Below, piece after piece: positions 493 to 63,552 of a stretch of 64,000 nucleotides of DNA. Under the pieces are notes generated by a model, which did no database searches, had not been told where the DNA came from, and saw nothing but the letters and a program-made list of their open reading frames with translations. Where the stretch lies: positions 1,949,001 to 2,013,000 of the forward strand of contig NZ_CP041186.1 in assembly GCF_006517175.1 (NCBI RefSeq), in the 5' to 3' direction. Within the stretch, counting starts at the first letter, position 1, and every line of letters begins with the position of its first letter. The position numbers and the translations under genes were made by a program. The DNA is from Persicimonas caeni (GTDB taxonomy: Bacteria; Myxococcota_A; Bradymonadia; Bradymonadales; Bradymonadaceae).

Positions 493-1455
493 TTAGTTGA
501 GTGACTGCGGCGGCACTCGACGGATCTCGTGGCTGCCGCCCACGCAGAACTGGTGGCCCGGTGGGATGGTGCCGTCGGGGAATTCGATCTCGGTCTTGCC
601 TTTGCGCCACTTTCGCACTGCCTTTCGGTAGCCACTGACGAGCAGGCGCCTGCTCTCACGGTACGCCTGGCGCTGCTTGCAGTCGCCGCCGTGGCATAGC
701 GGTCGAGGCGCCTTCTTGGGGTCTTTAGGGCGTTCGTTCCACTTCACGCTGAGCACCTTCTGGGGCCCAGGACATGGTCGTTTTCGCTTTTTGGCCAACT
801 CACCTGCGTGCTGGTGGCACGTCTCGACGATCTTCTGGTGATACGCCTCGTCATCGAGGTCTTTCCACTGCGGGAGCTTTGCCATCTCGAGCGTGTAGCG
901 CTCAGTGGCCATCTCGATGAGCTCGGCTTCGGTCTTGCCTTCGTTCTTCTTTTTTCGCTTCTCTGCCCAGTACGTCTTGCGATTGACCACCTCGCCCACC
1001 ATCGGCTTGCCGCTCTTGTGGATATCCCACGAGCACAACCCCGGCCACAGCTTCGGGTGACTCACCAGGCCCGACTCGCTGGGGTTGCACACGATATAGC
1101 GCAACCGGTCGACCATCGCCTCGTCGTCCATCACCTTGGTCGCCGTGTAGCGGCGCTCCCAAAAGGTGCCAGTGCGGTTGCGCAAAGCGTTGATTTTCTT
1201 GGCCAGCTGGCTCTGAAAGTCGCGCATGAACAGGTGCAGCTGCAGCTTCTTCGAGCGCGCCAGCATGTGGAAGTGGTTGGACATGAAGCAAAACGCGAAG
1301 ATCTCGACGCTGTAGCGCCACGCGTACTTGGCCAACAGCCCCAGGATGATGGCGTTGACCTGCTCCTCGGGCAGAAGCGCGTACATCTGGTGCAGGGTGC
1401 GATTGCTCAACTCGTAGATGACATCCTTTTCCTGATTTCGCAGCGGGTGTCCCAT
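493..1455 (-). CDS. REP-associated tyrosine transposase (Y1/IS200-like)
   Basis: The 320-aa protein is a single-strand HUH endonuclease of the Transposase_17/RAYT family. The metal-binding HUH motif is seen as NHFHML (His61, His63), preceded by FCFMS. The likely catalytic Tyr120 lies in RLRYIVCNPSESGLV, the equivalent of the family's YIxLNPxRAGLV. The C-terminal half (from about residue 150) is basic and Lys/Arg-rich, longer than in IS200 TnpA but usual for RAYTs. These enzymes act on short palindromes near their gene and are usually domesticated, single-copy and without classical inverted ends. GTGTC-palindromes on both sides (198-252 and 1617-1635) fit that role. The start is the first Met, 15 residues before the YELSNRT segment typical of the N-terminus. 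Confidence 0.88.
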   Translation of the reverse strand: MGHPLRNQEKDVIYELSNRTLHQMYALLPEEQVNAIILGLLAKYAWRYSVEIFAFCFMSNHFHMLARSKKLQLHLFMRDFQSQLAKKINALRNRTGTFWERRYTATKVMDDEAMVDRLRYIVCNPSESGLVSHPKLWPGLCSWDIHKSGKPMVGEVVNRKTYWAEKRKKKNEGKTEAELIEMATERYTLEMAKLPQWKDLDDEAYHQKIVETCHQHAGELAKKRKRPCPGPQKVLSVKWNERPKDPKKAPRPLCHGGDCKQRQAYRESRRLLVSGYRKAVRKWRKGKTEIEFPDGTIPPGHQFCVGGSHEIRRVPPQSLN

Positions 1456-41078: not shown

Positions 41079-43157
41079 TTAACGCTCGTCGTAGAAATAC
41101 CCGAGGATGCCGTCCATCCCCTGCGGCGCGCCCTCGTGGGTCCACGACAACGCGTTGGTCGTGGGCATCGCCTCGCCCCGGGGCTCGCCGGCCGTGCCGC
41201 GGCCCTCTTCTTCGTCTTTGGCGCTATAGACCGGGTGATGACCCACCGCCAGCACACCGTTGGGCGTGCCCCACACGTCGGTGATCTCGGTGACGCCACC
41301 GCCCTCGCCGGTCTCCCAGTCCCACTCGCCGGTGACGAGCGTGCTGTAGACGATATCGCTCAAATCTGCGTTGTAGGCGCGCACGAACCGGTTCCACTGC
41401 CCGATGCCCTCGCCCACGCCCGGCATCTTCTGGAAGGCGTCGTTCGTCGTGATCGTGCGCCGGCCGCGACAACTCACGTATACCCGCCCGTCGAGGTCGA
41501 CGCGCACGCGGTTGCAGCGGGTGGTGTTCAGGTCTTGCCAGCCCGCGTTGGGGTTGGGCTGCCCCTCCAGGTGCGGCTTGTCCGCCCCGAAAGTCGGCGC
41601 GTCCTCGCGGGCGCCCTCGTTGAGCTCGGCGACGTAGGTCGCGTTCGTCAATGTTCCGTCGGCCAGGGCGAGTTTGCCGAGCCACGAGATATGGATATTG
41701 CCGTTCGTGCCGGTGAATTGGCGCTGGAAGCCGGTGAAGTCGGGGTTGGCCGCGATGTCCGCGCCATTCCACAGGTTATAGGTGTTGTTGCCGTGGGCGC
41801 GCGCTAACACCACGACCTTGTCGCCGGCGTAGTCGATGGCCACCCCGTCGACGTATTGGTCGGGCGAGGAGTTCTGGTCGGTCTCGGTGTAGAGGCGCGA
41901 CCACCACTTGAGCTCGCCGTCGGACTCCATGGCCACCAGGGCCGGCTCGAAGTCGGGGTTGCCGCCGGGAAGCTTCGACTGGGTGCTGTAGCCGAAGTAG
42001 ATATCGCCCGTGCGCCGGTCGATGGCGATGCCGCCGCGCCTCTGGGTCGGCTTGTCGCTCGTGCGATAGCCGGTGTACCCGGGCCCGCCGGGGCAATCGC
42101 CGCCGGGCACGCACGGCCCCGAGAAGTAGTAGTCGTCGGGGAACGCCCCCTGGCGCGTCTCGCCGTTGCCGTCGTCGGCGACGAGCTCGTAGTCCTCCTG
42201 GGTTTTGGAGCGAAGCGAGCCCATACGTCCCGCCTTGAGGACGACCGCGCTCTCGTTGATCGTGCCGTCGAAGGTGTCCGCGGGCCCGTAGAATTCGCCG
42301 TCGGCGTGCCAATGCGCCGGCCAGTGATTGACGACGTCGGGCTCGCCGTCGGCGGTCAGCCGGCGAATGTCGGCCCAGTCGAAGTCGTACTCCGCGCCGC
42401 GCCCGTAGACGACCTTGCCGTCGGAGCCGACGTCCCACGGCTGGATCTCCTGGAACGCCGACACGCCCTCGAAGCCCGACGCGCGCCGCGGCTCGCAGAC
42501 GATATCGCGCGACCACGCCACGTCCGTGGGCACGCCGTCGACGAAATTGCCGTCGAGCTTGGCGATGTAGTAGCCCATCTGGGAGGTGTCGCCCACCTCT
42601 CGGTTACCCGAGATGTAGATATCGCCCGTCGCGGTGCCCGGGACCTCGGTGGAGCGAATGCGAAAGACGTCGGCCGCCGTCCCCTGCGGAAAGTGCACCA
42701 CGCGCAGCACCTCGGTGAGGTCGGCGCTGACGTGGGCGAGGAACGCGACCTGACCGTCGGCCGACGAGTTCATCCCGCCGGTGCCCAGCTCGATCGTCTC
42801 GGTCCCCGCGGGGATCCAATCGGTATTGTCGCTCGCCCCGCCCAGCAAAAACGTCCCGTCGGAGAGGCGGTGAATGGCGTTGAGCTTCTCGTGGCCCACC
42901 CCGCCCAGGTAGCTGACCGAGTCGTCGGAGCCCACCGGCGAGTTGTCGGCCGTACCGGCGTCGTGTTGTGTACCGGCGTCGTGCTGTGTACCGGCGTCGT
43001 GTCCCGTGCTCCCGTCGGGCGAGCTCGACGCGTCGCCATCCTCGCCAAGGCCGCCGCCGTTGCTCGACGAGTCCGAGCACCCCGTGAGCGCGAGGCTTGC
43101 GACGGCGAGGAGGCAGAAGAGTCGGCGGGTACGGGGTCCGGGATTCTTGTATTTCAT
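41079..43157 (-). CDS. Large hypothetical lipoprotein with propeller-like repeats
   Basis: The 692-aa protein has an N-terminal signal with lipobox ALTGC and a linker of three DAGTQH-type units encoded by nearly identical 18-bp repeats. The body contains repeated LxxDGxFLLGG, ISGN, GDIYFGY and GRVYVSC elements like the blades of a secreted beta-propeller (SBBP-like). Two Cys pairs may be disulfides (CVPGGDC, CEPRR). AGGAG stands 9 bases before the ATG at 43157. A structured ~200-bp repeat (43187-43389) lies just upstream, in the region expected to hold its promoter. Function unknown; a surface binding or matrix role is plausible. Confidence 0.75.
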   Translation of the reverse strand: MKYKNPGPRTRRLFCLLAVASLALTGCSDSSSNGGGLGEDGDASSSPDGSTGHDAGTQHDAGTQHDAGTADNSPVGSDDSVSYLGGVGHEKLNAIHRLSDGTFLLGGASDNTDWIPAGTETIELGTGGMNSSADGQVAFLAHVSADLTEVLRVVHFPQGTAADVFRIRSTEVPGTATGDIYISGNREVGDTSQMGYYIAKLDGNFVDGVPTDVAWSRDIVCEPRRASGFEGVSAFQEIQPWDVGSDGKVVYGRGAEYDFDWADIRRLTADGEPDVVNHWPAHWHADGEFYGPADTFDGTINESAVVLKAGRMGSLRSKTQEDYELVADDGNGETRQGAFPDDYYFSGPCVPGGDCPGGPGYTGYRTSDKPTQRRGGIAIDRRTGDIYFGYSTQSKLPGGNPDFEPALVAMESDGELKWWSRLYTETDQNSSPDQYVDGVAIDYAGDKVVVLARAHGNNTYNLWNGADIAANPDFTGFQRQFTGTNGNIHISWLGKLALADGTLTNATYVAELNEGAREDAPTFGADKPHLEGQPNPNAGWQDLNTTRCNRVRVDLDGRVYVSCRGRRTITTNDAFQKMPGVGEGIGQWNRFVRAYNADLSDIVYSTLVTGEWDWETGEGGGVTEITDVWGTPNGVLAVGHHPVYSAKDEEEGRGTAGEPRGEAMPTTNALSWTHEGAPQGMDGILGYFYDER

Positions 43158-43186
43158 TTTGGATTGCTCCTGTTGGTATTTGTGGT

Positions 43187-43389
43187 GGCCTTGCAGAGGT
43201 GTGGCCTCAACCCCTCCGCCCTTCGGGCACCTCCCCTACGGCAGACTGCGCCGTGGGGAGGAAATGGTTGCCTCAACAAACACATGTGATGATTGGGGCA
43301 ACCATTCGCCCCCCACGGCCGATGTTGCAGGCCGAAGGGGGGCAGCCGCCGCAAGCGGCGGGGGGTTGATGCCCCAACTCTGCAAGGCC
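43187..43389. repeat. ~205-bp multi-hairpin intergenic element, copy 1 (family B)
   Basis: The ends pair perfectly: GGCCTTGCAGA (43187) with TCTGCAAGGCC (to 43389). Inside are AACCCCTCCGCC paired loosely with GGCGGGGGGTT, hairpin CCTCCCC-T-ACGGC with GCCGT-GGGGAGG, hairpin AATGGTTGCC with GGCAACCATT, and hairpin CCGC-CGCAAG-CGG. Copy 2 at 62254-62465 has the same plan with different bases in two stems. No T-run and no ORF with a ribosome-binding site. Confidence 0.85.
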
Positions 43390-43404
43390 TACAATATCCC
43401 CCCC

Positions 43405-44547
43405 TCAAAACGGCTGATCCTGACTCACCGTCAAATCCTGACTGATCGCAAACAACTCATCATCCCGGCTGACCAACCGCGGCCCGTGGCCGACGACCTC
43501 GCCCAGGGGCATCGGCACCACCTGACGGCCGCGCAGGCTCATCGCCACGTCGTCGACCCCGTCGGGCAGCTCGGTCTCGCCGAGCACGACCTTGACCGCC
43601 CCACGGGCAAAGCGCGCCGCCAAGATATTGTCGAACGCCGAGGGCGGGCCCCCGCGGGCCAGGTGGCCGATGACGTTGTTGCGCACGCTCATCGGGTGGC
43701 CCAGCACCTCGTGGATGCGCTCGCTCTGGGCGATATACTTGGCCAGATGCTCCCCGTAGCGCTCGTCGCCGCTCGCCTTTTTGACCCCCTCGGCCATCAC
43801 GATGATGAAGTAGCGGTAGTCGCCCTCGAGCGCGGCCACGCAGCGGCCGACGACCGCTCTCGGGTCGTAGGTCTCGGCGATCTCCGGAATCAGGATGGTC
43901 GAGGCGCCCGCGGCGATGCCGGCCGACAGGGCCAGCCAACCGCTGGCGTTGCCCATGACCTCCAGGATGACCGCGCGGCGGTGGCTCTCGACGGTGTCGC
44001 GGATCTTGCGCAACGCGTCGACCGTGTTGCCCACGGCGGTGTCGTAGCCGATGGTGTAGTCGGTGCCGTAGATATCGTTGTCGATGGTCGCCGGGATGCC
44101 CACCACCTTGAGCGAACGGCCGAATTTGGCCCGGTAGGCCTCGGCGATGGCGTGGGCGCCGCGATACGAGCCGTCGCCGCCGATGACGACCAACCCGGAG
44201 ACCTCGAGCTGATACAGGTTGACCGCGGCGACGTCCAAGAACGCCTCGCGCGCCTCGCGACGCTCCTCGGCGTCGGGCGCGTCGGGGTCGGCCGGCAACA
44301 GCTCGGGCACCCGCCCGGTGCCGATGCAGGTGCCCCCACGATTCAGGATGTCGCGCAACTCACGGCGCTGCACGTCGACGTCCATGCTCGCCTCCAGACG
44401 CCCGGCGAGCCCGCGAAAGCCGTTGTTGAACAGGATGATCTCGTGGTCGGGGTCGCGCCGCTTCGTCGAGCGGAACACCCCTCGAATGGCCGCATTCATG
44501 CCGGGGGCGTCCCCGCCGCTGGTCACGATCGCGATTTTTTTGCCCAT
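43405..44547 (-). CDS. pfkA: ATP-dependent 6-phosphofructokinase
   Basis: The 380-aa enzyme phosphorylates fructose 6-phosphate, the committed step of glycolysis. Signatures: TSGGDAPGMNAAIR (10-22), GGDGSYRGA (123-131; the Gly after Asp marks ATP rather than pyrophosphate use), and PATIDNDIYGTDYTIGYDTA with catalytic Asp156 and Asp158. MAEGVKKASGDERYG and HLARGGPPSAFD complete the active site. It is slightly longer than the E. coli enzyme (320 aa), with inserts around residues 85-105. Single gene on the minus strand. Confidence 0.95.
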   Translation of the reverse strand: MGKKIAIVTSGGDAPGMNAAIRGVFRSTKRRDPDHEIILFNNGFRGLAGRLEASMDVDVQRRELRDILNRGGTCIGTGRVPELLPADPDAPDAEERREAREAFLDVAAVNLYQLEVSGLVVIGGDGSYRGAHAIAEAYRAKFGRSLKVVGIPATIDNDIYGTDYTIGYDTAVGNTVDALRKIRDTVESHRRAVILEVMGNASGWLALSAGIAAGASTILIPEIAETYDPRAVVGRCVAALEGDYRYFIIVMAEGVKKASGDERYGEHLAKYIAQSERIHEVLGHPMSVRNNVIGHLARGGPPSAFDNILAARFARGAVKVVLGETELPDGVDDVAMSLRGRQVVPMPLGEVVGHGPRLVSRDDELFAISQDLTVSQDQPF

Positions 44548-61351: not shown

Positions 61352-62137
61352 TCAAAAAAGCCGGCGCATCAACCGCTCGAGGAACTCGTCGCCGAGCGTG
61401 TCGCCGGACATCTGCCGGCGTGCGTCGGCGAGGTCGGCCTCGACGCGCTCGACCCACGCGAGCAGCTCCGTTTGCAGCCCGGCCCAGCGGGCGCGCAGCT
61501 GCACGTGTTGGCCGAGGAAGGGCTCGATCAGCGCGTCCATCGAGGCGATGACCGCGCGTATCGTCGAGTCGTCGGGGCTCTCCTCGAAGGTCTGTTGGGC
61601 GTCACCGAGCGCGTCGACCACGGTGGGAACGAGGTGTCGAATCTCGGCGGTCACCACGACCAGGTGTGCGGCGAGTTGGCGAGCGCGCGTGGGCCCGTTG
61701 TCGAGGAGCGGCTCGAGGTGGGTGACCGGGGAGTCGAGGGCGGCGCGCACCTCTTCGTCGAGCAGGCTCAACTGCGCGCGGGCGCTGCCGACGCTCGAGC
61801 GAATCTGGCTCATGGCCTCGTTCTCGAGCCACACCTGCTGCAAAAAGCCGAACAAGTCACCGACGAGCACGGCAGCCTCGTCGGTGCGCTCGTCCAGCCG
61901 GCGATCGAGGGCCGCGCGCCGCTCGACGGCCATCTGCGAGATGACCTCAGGCGCCGCCTCGCGCGCCTGCACCACGAGCGCCCAGCCCGTGGCGATCGTC
62001 GCCGCCAGAAGCGTCGCAGACACGACGAGGGCGACGAGCAGGCGGCGCCGGCCGCGTCGGCGCTCGGCCAACTCGCCCTCGCGACGCGCCGCGGCGAGCG
62101 CTTCGTTCGAGGGGGTTTGTTCGGGGTGTAGCGACAT
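61352..62137 (-). CDS. Hypothetical membrane-anchored helical protein
   Basis: The 261-aa protein has a soluble basic N-terminus (1-33), one transmembrane helix (34-55) and a long helical part with heptad pattern (about 70-250) outside or inside the membrane. No known domain is seen; the layout resembles the signal-sensing end of chemoreceptors but it lacks HAMP and MCP motifs. It converges with the protease gene over 15 bp. Structured repeat copy 2 (62254-62465) lies upstream. Confidence 0.7.
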   Translation of the reverse strand: MSLHPEQTPSNEALAAARREGELAERRRGRRRLLVALVVSATLLAATIATGWALVVQAREAAPEVISQMAVERRAALDRRLDERTDEAAVLVGDLFGFLQQVWLENEAMSQIRSSVGSARAQLSLLDEEVRAALDSPVTHLEPLLDNGPTRARQLAAHLVVVTAEIRHLVPTVVDALGDAQQTFEESPDDSTIRAVIASMDALIEPFLGQHVQLRARWAGLQTELLAWVERVEADLADARRQMSGDTLGDEFLERLMRRLF

Positions 62138-62253
62138 GGGTATTTGGCGAAATGGGTGTTCTTGGCTTGTGGCTTGGAGCTAGAACACGTGGCCGGGTGG
62201 ATTCATTCGATGGTTTTGTCGGGTTGGGCAGGGGGCTGGTGTCCAACAGTGGT

Positions 62254-62465
62254 GGCCTTGCAGGTGCGTGGCCTCAACCCCTCCGCCTCGCTTCGCTTCG
62301 GCACCTCCCCTTCGGGCTGAAAGGCGCCCGAGGGGAGGGAATGGTTGCCTCACTAGACATTTGTGGGTGTCAAGGCAGCCATTTGCCCCCCGCGGCCGCT
62401 AGTTCAGGCCGAAGGGGGGCAGGCGCGATGCGCCGGAGGGGATTGAGGGTGCAAATCGGCAAGGC
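62254..62465. repeat. ~205-bp multi-hairpin intergenic element, copy 2 (family B)
   Basis: Same plan and orientation as 43187-43389. Stem CCTCCCC-T-TCGGGC with GCCCGA-GGGGAGG keeps base pairing although the bases differ from copy 1 (ACGGC/GCCGT), and GGCGC-GAT-GCGCC replaces CCGC...GCGG. AATGGTTGCC pairs with GGCAGCCATT (one G-T pair). End pairing is partly lost (GGCCTTGCAG against TCGGCAAGGC). Both copies lie in same-strand intergenic gaps upstream of a minus-strand gene. The rest of 62138-62586 holds nothing else. Confidence 0.85.
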
Positions 62466-62586
62466 AACCAGACTTGCACATGCAAAAACTACCGATACTT
62501 TCGTCTGAGCGGGTTTCTTTCGGTGGGGACGAGAGGATTGACCCTCCGACCTCCTCCCGATGCATAAGGCGAATGATTTGACTTCG

Positions 62587-63552
62587 TCACCACTCATCGC
62601 TCGTTCCGGATCTCGAGTTGAGAGCCTTTCGAATAAGCGTCGGCCAGTCCTCGGAATCTTGAATGCCCACCCGCTCGAGTATCGAAAGGGCCTCAATTTG
62701 AACGTTTCGGTCGGCCCGAAAAAGAACCTGCCATGCCGCTTCGTGCTGGACCTGCGGCTCCCCGTCGTACAAAAGTGCTAGGAGGAGCACTTTCTCGAGC
62801 AACCTTAGGTAGAAGCACGATGCCCCCGAACGCTTGGGTATAGTGCTGTTCTCCGGGAGACGCGCAACCTCGAGCAGCCGCTCGGCAGCGGAACGCCGAA
62901 CCGGCGTCTCGTCGCTCCGATCCCACCTGTCGGCGGATGCGTCAAACAATGCCGCGCGCAGAACAGCGGCAAGGCTGTGGAGTTTGGGACGCCTGGCGGA
63001 GGTTGCCTTGGCGATCAAGCTCTGGCGTTCCTCATAGTCCAGCGAAGCATCGTACAGCCGCACGGCAAACTCGGTCTGCCGGTCGTCCTCCACGTCGGCG
63101 AGTACCGCCTCGAACGACGTTGTCCCCGAGTCATTCGATGTGCGTCGCACCGTTTCGATCCATAAGGCCAAGCCTGTCCTCCCCAAGATTTCAAGCGCAT
63201 CCACCGCCTGATGCATGACGACCTCGTCGTCGACTTCCACGATACGGGACCTAGCAAACTCACTGACCTCGTCGCTCGGGTCGTGGATCTGTGCGAGGAG
63301 CAAGACCTTCTCGAACAGGTCGAAGGAGCGTCCCGCTGCCGGAAAACGAGCGTCGAACTCGCCCCTGCGCGCCTGGTCGGCGAGGCCGGAGAATAACTCT
63401 GCAGCCGCCAGTCGCACTTCGCTCGAATCGTCCGTCAGCGACGCTTTCGTGAGCGCGGCGAGCGAGTGCAGACGCGGCGCCGCCTTCCTGGCCAGACACG
63501 CTACGGCGTCCAAGCGCGAGCTGTCGGAAAGAAACCGTTCAAGGCGTCTCAA
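62587..63552 (-). CDS. Hypothetical HEAT-like helical protein
   Basis: The 321-aa protein has repeated helical pairs with conserved Ala/Leu/Glu spacing (AVACLARKAAPRLHSLAALTK, EVRLAAAELFSGLA, VQHEAAWQVLFRAD), as in HEAT or armadillo solenoids. It has no signal or membrane span. No ATG fits; a TTG at 63552 is preceded by GGAAGAAG, and the frame is closed upstream within 16 codons. It directly follows the VRR-NUC gene (72 bp gap) on the same strand and is the second gene of that unit, which makes it a candidate immunity or partner protein of the nuclease. Confidence 0.65.
   Translation of the reverse strand: MRRLERFLSDSSRLDAVACLARKAAPRLHSLAALTKASLTDDSSEVRLAAAELFSGLADQARRGEFDARFPAAGRSFDLFEKVLLLAQIHDPSDEVSEFARSRIVEVDDEVVMHQAVDALEILGRTGLALWIETVRRTSNDSGTTSFEAVLADVEDDRQTEFAVRLYDASLDYEERQSLIAKATSARRPKLHSLAAVLRAALFDASADRWDRSDETPVRRSAAERLLEVARLPENSTIPKRSGASCFYLRLLEKVLLLALLYDGEPQVQHEAAWQVLFRADRNVQIEALSILERVGIQDSEDWPTLIRKALNSRSGTSDEW

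Follow-up and report, generated by a model that had tools for sequence, protein, structure and literature searches.

Inverted intergenic repeats of Persicimonas caeni look like a hairpin-containing variant of the BoxC triple-helix repeats of E. coli

Two elements in a 64,000-nucleotide stretch of the Persicimonas caeni genome (the window; NZ_CP041186.1, positions 1,949,001 to 2,013,000) are members of a large, patchy family of short intergenic DNA repeats that occurs in unrelated bacteria. The changes among the copies preserve two hairpins and, as judged from the sequences, apparently also a three-stranded fold. The repeats look like a hairpin-containing and apparently new variant of the BoxC triple-helix repeats of E. 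coli.

A first-pass annotation of the window had described one element present twice with shared orientation and plan. This was borne out by blastn, which aligned the two copies with 76% identity over 219 bp (E value 3e-35); both elements exist where they had been placed but are slightly longer than claimed, their limits in Table 1 being approximate. In each element one arm is duplicated, imperfectly and in inverted orientation; copy 1 matched its own reverse complement at 72%. Both copies are thus inverted pairs of an arm of ~90 nt: the left arm (A) in plus orientation is separated by a short spacer from its relative on the right (B), which has minus orientation. An arm consists of GGCCTTGC-N(10-12)-CCTCAA, the core, and then AATGGTTG; the core runs from CCCCTCC (a) through hairpin 1, an A, CCTCCCC (b), and an upper stem with a bulged T to GGGGAGG (c). 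The right arm has a GC-only form of the core stem, GCCCCCC/GGGGGGC. The stem change that the annotation had reported, ACGGC/GCCGT in copy 1 versus TCGGGC/GCCCGA in copy 2, is real, and the bulged T adjoins CCTCCCC/GGGGAGG in both copies; the second change, also confirmed, lies in hairpin 1 of the right arm (CCGCCGC..GCGGCGG in copy 1, GGCGC..GCGCC in copy 2). Copy 1 is flanked by genes at 41079-43157 and 43405-44547, copy 2 by genes at 61352-62137 and 62587-63552, all on the minus strand. Copy 1 follows, at 10 bp, the stop codon of the gene at 43405-44547, which from its own sequence we take to be phosphofructokinase-like. The arm symmetry, the genome-wide and cross-phylum family, and the mirror relation described below go beyond the first-pass annotation.

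Table 1. Parts of the two repeat copies in the window (positions within the 64,000-nucleotide stretch)
Feature	Position	Strand	Remark
Element copy 1 (subfamily I)	43184-43394	.	two arms, A (+) and B (-), with spacer between
Copy 1, A arm, outer end GGCCTTGCAG to AATGGTTG	43186-43270	+	arm model matches
Copy 1, a box (third-strand box) CCCCTCC, left unpaired when the two hairpins form	43211-43217	+	
Copy 1, hairpin 1, GCCCTTCGGGC	43218-43228	+	covariation
Copy 1, hairpin 2 including upper stem with bulged T	43230-43261	+	
Copy 1, b box CCTCCCC	43230-43236	+	
Copy 1, c box GGGGAGG	43255-43261	+	
Copy 1, inter-arm spacer, part of the central AATGGTTGCC..GGCAACCATT palindrome	43271-43298	.	
Copy 1, B arm of the GC-only type with stem GCCCCCC/GGGGGGC and junction T	43299-43390	-	
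Element copy 2 (subfamily I)	62249-62471	.	
Copy 2, A arm	62253-62347	+	
Copy 2, a box	62278-62284	+	
Copy 2, hairpin 1	62285-62302	+	
Copy 2, junction A	62303	+	
Copy 2, b box	62304-62310	+	
Copy 2, c box	62332-62338	+	
Copy 2, B arm	62376-62467	-	

The strict core pattern matched 82 units in the 8.05-Mb genome, and the reversed control pattern matched none. The window accounts for only 2 sites of this family, which numbers at least 82 core units. Blastn with copy 1 as query recovered ~20 elements of its subfamily, and an arm profile found ~37 arms in the regions fetched; the covariance model R1 (RNAalifold) kept only 7 pairs and therefore detected mainly subfamily I. The 82 units include a second subfamily with the ends AATCCCTTGCTTGTTG and a different spacer. 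Terminal inverted repeats are present, and subfamilies with differing ends have CCTTGC in common. In subfamily I a type A arm is joined with a type B arm, and 11 of the 14 unit pairs in the genome that are less than 300 bp apart have the plus-then-minus order seen in the window.

All 34 clusters examined, with genes called by a codon-score caller made for this analysis, were intergenic and none lay inside a gene: 9 are located between two stops, 5 between two starts, and 18 between a stop and a start. The distance from the core to the nearest stop codon was commonly 2-43 nt, with a median of about 35 nt. The description as a GC-rich intergenic element of a general bacterial kind was right, and the setting between same-strand genes holds for both window copies; elsewhere, however, copies also occur between convergent and divergent genes, so same-strand context is no rule. 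In one element an insertion sequence with the ends CCCACTCGATTCGGATC and a long transposase-like frame is located in the loop of a B-arm hairpin (L053:4590-6945; C1 about 4773590-4775945), flanked by an apparent 5-bp duplication, CTTCG. Insertion sequences targeting REP sequences are known. This sole gene-bearing copy (C1:4773367-4775995) was considered as an autonomous parent of the family and rejected, as it is merely interrupted by an unrelated insertion sequence.

Selection on structure, proposed earlier from base changes that keep pairing in two copies, was supported by the many additional ones. In 80 strict units, the six outer positions of hairpin 1 were paired in 85% of cases, compared to 58% (SD 3.7) with shuffled 3' arms (0 of 2000 shuffles), a comparison of related copies whose events are not independent and which comprise 18 distinct 5' and 14 distinct 3' arms. 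Several positions of hairpin 1 in these units showed four kinds of standard pair. Natural sequences also folded more stably than chimeras of two copies, with -6.0 versus -3.2 kcal/mol for hairpin 1 and -12.6 versus -10.0 kcal/mol for hairpin 2. Counting of outer pairs in the upper stem of hairpin 2 gave no signal because of the bulge, and chimera folding was used instead. The observations named in advance as speaking against selection, namely, no further copies or stems broken as often as kept, were looked for; more copies were found, and hairpin 1 was kept far above shuffled halves.

The a box CCCCTCC mirrors the b box CCTCCCC, and a structure-only detector gave the first hint that a follows b in other variants. 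To test this, we scanned viral contigs with patterns fixing only the closing bases of hairpin 1, the junction A, b, and c, and then read off a. Among the arms fetched in this way by b and c only, a was TCCCTCA in 50 of 59 with b GCTCCCT and TCCCCCA in 12 of 21 with b GCCCCCT. The commonest form of a was CCCCTCC for b CCTCCCC (19 of 45), CCCCTCT for b TCTCCCC (9 of 42), and TCCCTCC for b CCTCCCT. The remaining arms had other forms of a (CTCATCC for CCTTCCC, CCTCTCC for CCTCCCC) or unrelated hairpins; the frequent forms CTCATCC and CCTCTCC contain one invalid triplet each.

Triplets were scored as valid for a purine-motif triplex on the opposite strand if they were G·G-C, A·A-T, T·A-T, or T·C-G, the last of which counts as a valid purine-motif triplet. 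When each of six b classes, which were chosen by us and are lineages rather than independent events, was combined with its commonest a, 41 of 42 triplets were valid, the best score of 720 permutations and reached by the observed pairing only. In the direct register, the same six classes gave 25 valid triplets of 42, and plain mirror identity amounted to 38 of 42, reached by 1 of 720 permutations. For 38 distinct types, the triplet score was 5.55, compared to 4.49 after shuffling (0 of 20000). In the A arms, CCTCCCC, GGGGAGG, and GGAGGGG form, at the level of sequence, 7 of 7 triplets in class II order (pyrimidine, purine, antiparallel third strand), whereas the register of the GC-only B arms is ambiguous and these arms therefore neither support nor refute a triplex. 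The first-pass annotation had left open whether RNA or a DNA hairpin is selected. Its claim of selected structure stands, but a DNA intrastrand triplex of the BoxC kind fits better than a hairpin alone, because the dimer is symmetric, the copies occur in convergent, tandem, and divergent settings, and covariation in mirror register links an unpaired box to a helix.

Among 284 genomes of the phylum, many of them incomplete, the strict core pattern was present in 16 with a patchy distribution, and sister species of one genus contained 120, 83, 14, 4, and 0 units. A scan of named genomes with a related pattern gave at least 120 stretches, for which the chance expectation, estimated with uniform bases, is far below one. 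Among the matches listed, most belonged to Oscillospiraceae and other Clostridia, and others to Brevundimonas, Patescibacteria, Flavobacteriales (Bacteroidota), Synergistaceae (Synergistota), Casimicrobiaceae (Proteobacteria), and Omnitrophica. The phage collection contained no match to the element, and plasmids a single one of 29 nt, in Deinococcus aquaticus. Contigs classed as viral in IMG/VR (L364 and L628) contain between seven and nine related arms over about 12 kb and are either prophage-borne or host DNA. In one genome (G011, L338-L341) the units are arranged in tandem in one orientation with a period of about 103-105 bp and form no inverted pairs. In another genus of the family (G008; L069, L072, L075, L077) short direct repeats of the type CCGACCACTTTGCCGATCCGCAACTTC surround the B-type arm and resemble the outer ends of the window elements.

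To our knowledge, bacterial intrastrand-triplex repeats have been recognized since the 1990s without a function, their triplex being inferred from sequence and test-tube data. In these repeats, described as BoxC, PIT element, or TM (intrastrand triplex motif), a pyrimidine block, a purine block, and a third-strand block follow on one strand; E. coli K-12 has 23 TM copies, all of them in intergenic DNA, and each of its five close inverted pairs combines type A with type B (Holder et al. 2015, PMC4666352). TM forms a stable triplex in vitro, has no link to transposons and no known enzyme, and goes along with increased local sequence variation between strains, while in vivo footprinting of BoxC showed no stable triplex (PMC4666352). 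The element described here resembles these repeats in the order of pyrimidine, purine, and third-strand blocks on one strand (read on the minus strand of the arm), in being G/C-rich, intergenic, and patchily distributed in many unrelated bacteria with no known enzyme, and in the pairing of one type A and one type B unit in inverted orientation.

It differs from them in the connection to the third strand. Published triplex finders use loops of 1-6 nt (ITxF) or 0-10 nt (the older finder of Hoyne et al.) (PMC4666352), and BoxC/TM have a loop of 1-6 nt, whereas the third strand of our element is tied by the covarying hairpin 1, for which the pattern range is 4-34 nt plus the closing pair and the A, outside the 1-6 nt definition. 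The stem is GGGGAGG instead of the BoxC stem GGGNGAGGG and, unlike in BoxC, the hairpin-2 side is extended as well, giving elements of ~205-260 bp with terminal repeats. The E. coli BoxC consensus CCCTCNCCCN3-6GGGNGAGGGN3GGGNGAGGG had 0 matches in this genome, whereas a sister genome of the same family (G001) contains 17 classical BoxC copies, CCCTCTCCCTCTGGGAGAGGGCTGGGGTGAGGG, and the present element is absent there. As the hairpin-1 loop exceeds the published lengths and the BoxC pattern does not occur here, the element is better regarded as a variant of the BoxC kind than as a member in the strict definition. Searches of open-access papers with the core sequences yielded no earlier description, which may exist elsewhere.

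These features suggest a model in which the intergenic element, an inverted heterodimer of an A arm and a B arm, would be non-autonomous, and its module, once single-stranded, could adopt two hairpins together with an intrastrand triple helix. In the purine strand CCTCCCC would pair with GGGGAGG, and GGAGGGG would lie antiparallel in the groove, with hairpin 1 as the connecting loop. Strand separation at replication would let the dimer snap back, as assumed for BoxC/PIT/TM repeats, and the structured single strand could be a substrate for copying or moving of the repeat and for local rearrangement. We lean slightly towards this model as a whole, that is, a triplex-capable selfish repeat working like BoxC/PIT/TM. 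From the sequences, the triplex is predicted to form in the cell, and the element is probably essentially selfish rather than a regulator. Evidence for mobility comes from two copies 1.56 kb apart (C1:579491 and 581055), which are identical at 263 of 266 positions and whose flanks diverge after 9 bp on the left side and directly at the edge on the right side. This indicates that the element moves or is copied and that the copied stretch ends where the element ends; the uneven unit counts within one genus, from 120 down to 0, point the same way to mobility or copying. The analysis revealed neither a target-site duplication nor an empty site nor an enzyme. Spread probably proceeds via single-stranded DNA, and we prefer replication-linked copying.

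Mobilization could instead be due to a Y1 transposase (IS200-type, RAYT, or TIRYT) that recognizes the hairpins of a REP/REPIN-like family and acts in trans, which we consider unlikely. REP dimers are likewise hairpin units arranged as inverted heterodimers in intergenic regions, often just after stop codons (PMC3733652), and like REP, BIME, and REPIN sequences with RAYT (PMC3116915, PMC3733652, PMC6006769) our element forms inverted hairpin dimers that are intergenic, patchy, and of high copy number. Unlike these, it has two hairpins per unit and no flanking RAYT gene was found; the conserved GTAG/GTGG foot (GT[AG]G) of REP/REPIN is absent, the conserved foot on the opposite strand being GGTG plus a variable stem base. 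The TIRYT-associated TIR families with GGGGWSAS (PMC3733652) share double-palindromic G-rich repeats in dimers or clusters, but the consensus differs (GGGGAGGTG) and we found no Y1 gene with the repeat at its borders. Among the 58 nearest genomes, with kinship ignored, a full-length Y1 gene (E<1e-14) was present in 9 of 10 element-bearing but only 6 of 48 element-free ones. This correlation was not repeated in families f22 and f27, where the four strongest element-bearing genomes have no full-length Y1. Elsewhere, no Y1 reached E<=0.001 in 13 of 30 genomes bearing the element, and one of these 13 has 182 units. One Clostridia Y1 gene has such an element inside it (RAYT-like, frame broken; metagenome-assembled genome, L250:1468-2147), but in this genome and in its relatives the scanned Y1 loci have no arm within about 1.5-2.5 kb, and a search for a RAYT/IS200 link with PF01797 in the own genome, relatives, the 30 element-bearing genomes, and a second clade revealed no positional association. 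The genome itself contains a 1.2-kb multi-copy element encoding a Y1 transposase of 320-330 amino acids, at 493-1455 (-) of the window and in about 19 other places; its ends, one of which has a ACACGGTGTCAGACACCGTGT hairpin, bear no relation to the repeat.

Less probable still is a transcribed RNA element, such as a terminator, 3'-end stabilizer, or regulator, whose hairpins are selected in RNA. The stem-preserving changes are compatible with this reading, pyrimidine-motif triplexes can form in RNA (PMC4666352), and the frequent location close behind stop codons, many copies ending within a few tens of nucleotides past the stop at the median distance given above, would suit a role in the transcript too. 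Against it speak the symmetry of the dimer, its occurrence between divergent as well as convergent genes, the absence of a T-run, and the absence of promoter and terminator activity of BoxC in published tests (PMC4666352). A search of Rfam at gathering and relaxed thresholds gave no credible match for the element or its relatives in 15 loci, with chance-like matches below threshold. Very improbable is a classical MITE, i.e., a deleted relative of a DDE insertion sequence recognized by its ends GGCCTTGC / AATCCCTTGC, since apart from the terminal inverted repeats and the CCTTGC shared by subfamilies with different ends, no full-length parent bearing these ends was found among the strict arms, no target-site duplication was recognized, and the core is common to phyla whose elements have other ends.

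Returning to the triplex-capable selfish repeat, covariation of triplets in mirror register can be read only if the stem lacks mirror symmetry, so that this second, hairpin-looped class with an asymmetric stem allows an evolutionary test: evolution itself tests the triplex. A more far-reaching proposal, which we put forward tentatively and rather doubt, is a cross-phylum superfamily of mobile repeats united by selection in favour of a DNA triple helix whose third strand is looped by a hairpin. Compensatory changes would then act on base triplets, and a putative, specific enzyme working on single strands would recognize the fold. As the family is countable and patchy in sister species, comparing carriers with non-carriers offers a way to the spreading enzyme. 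The BoxC-type fold may be what lets such repeats spread or destabilize DNA.
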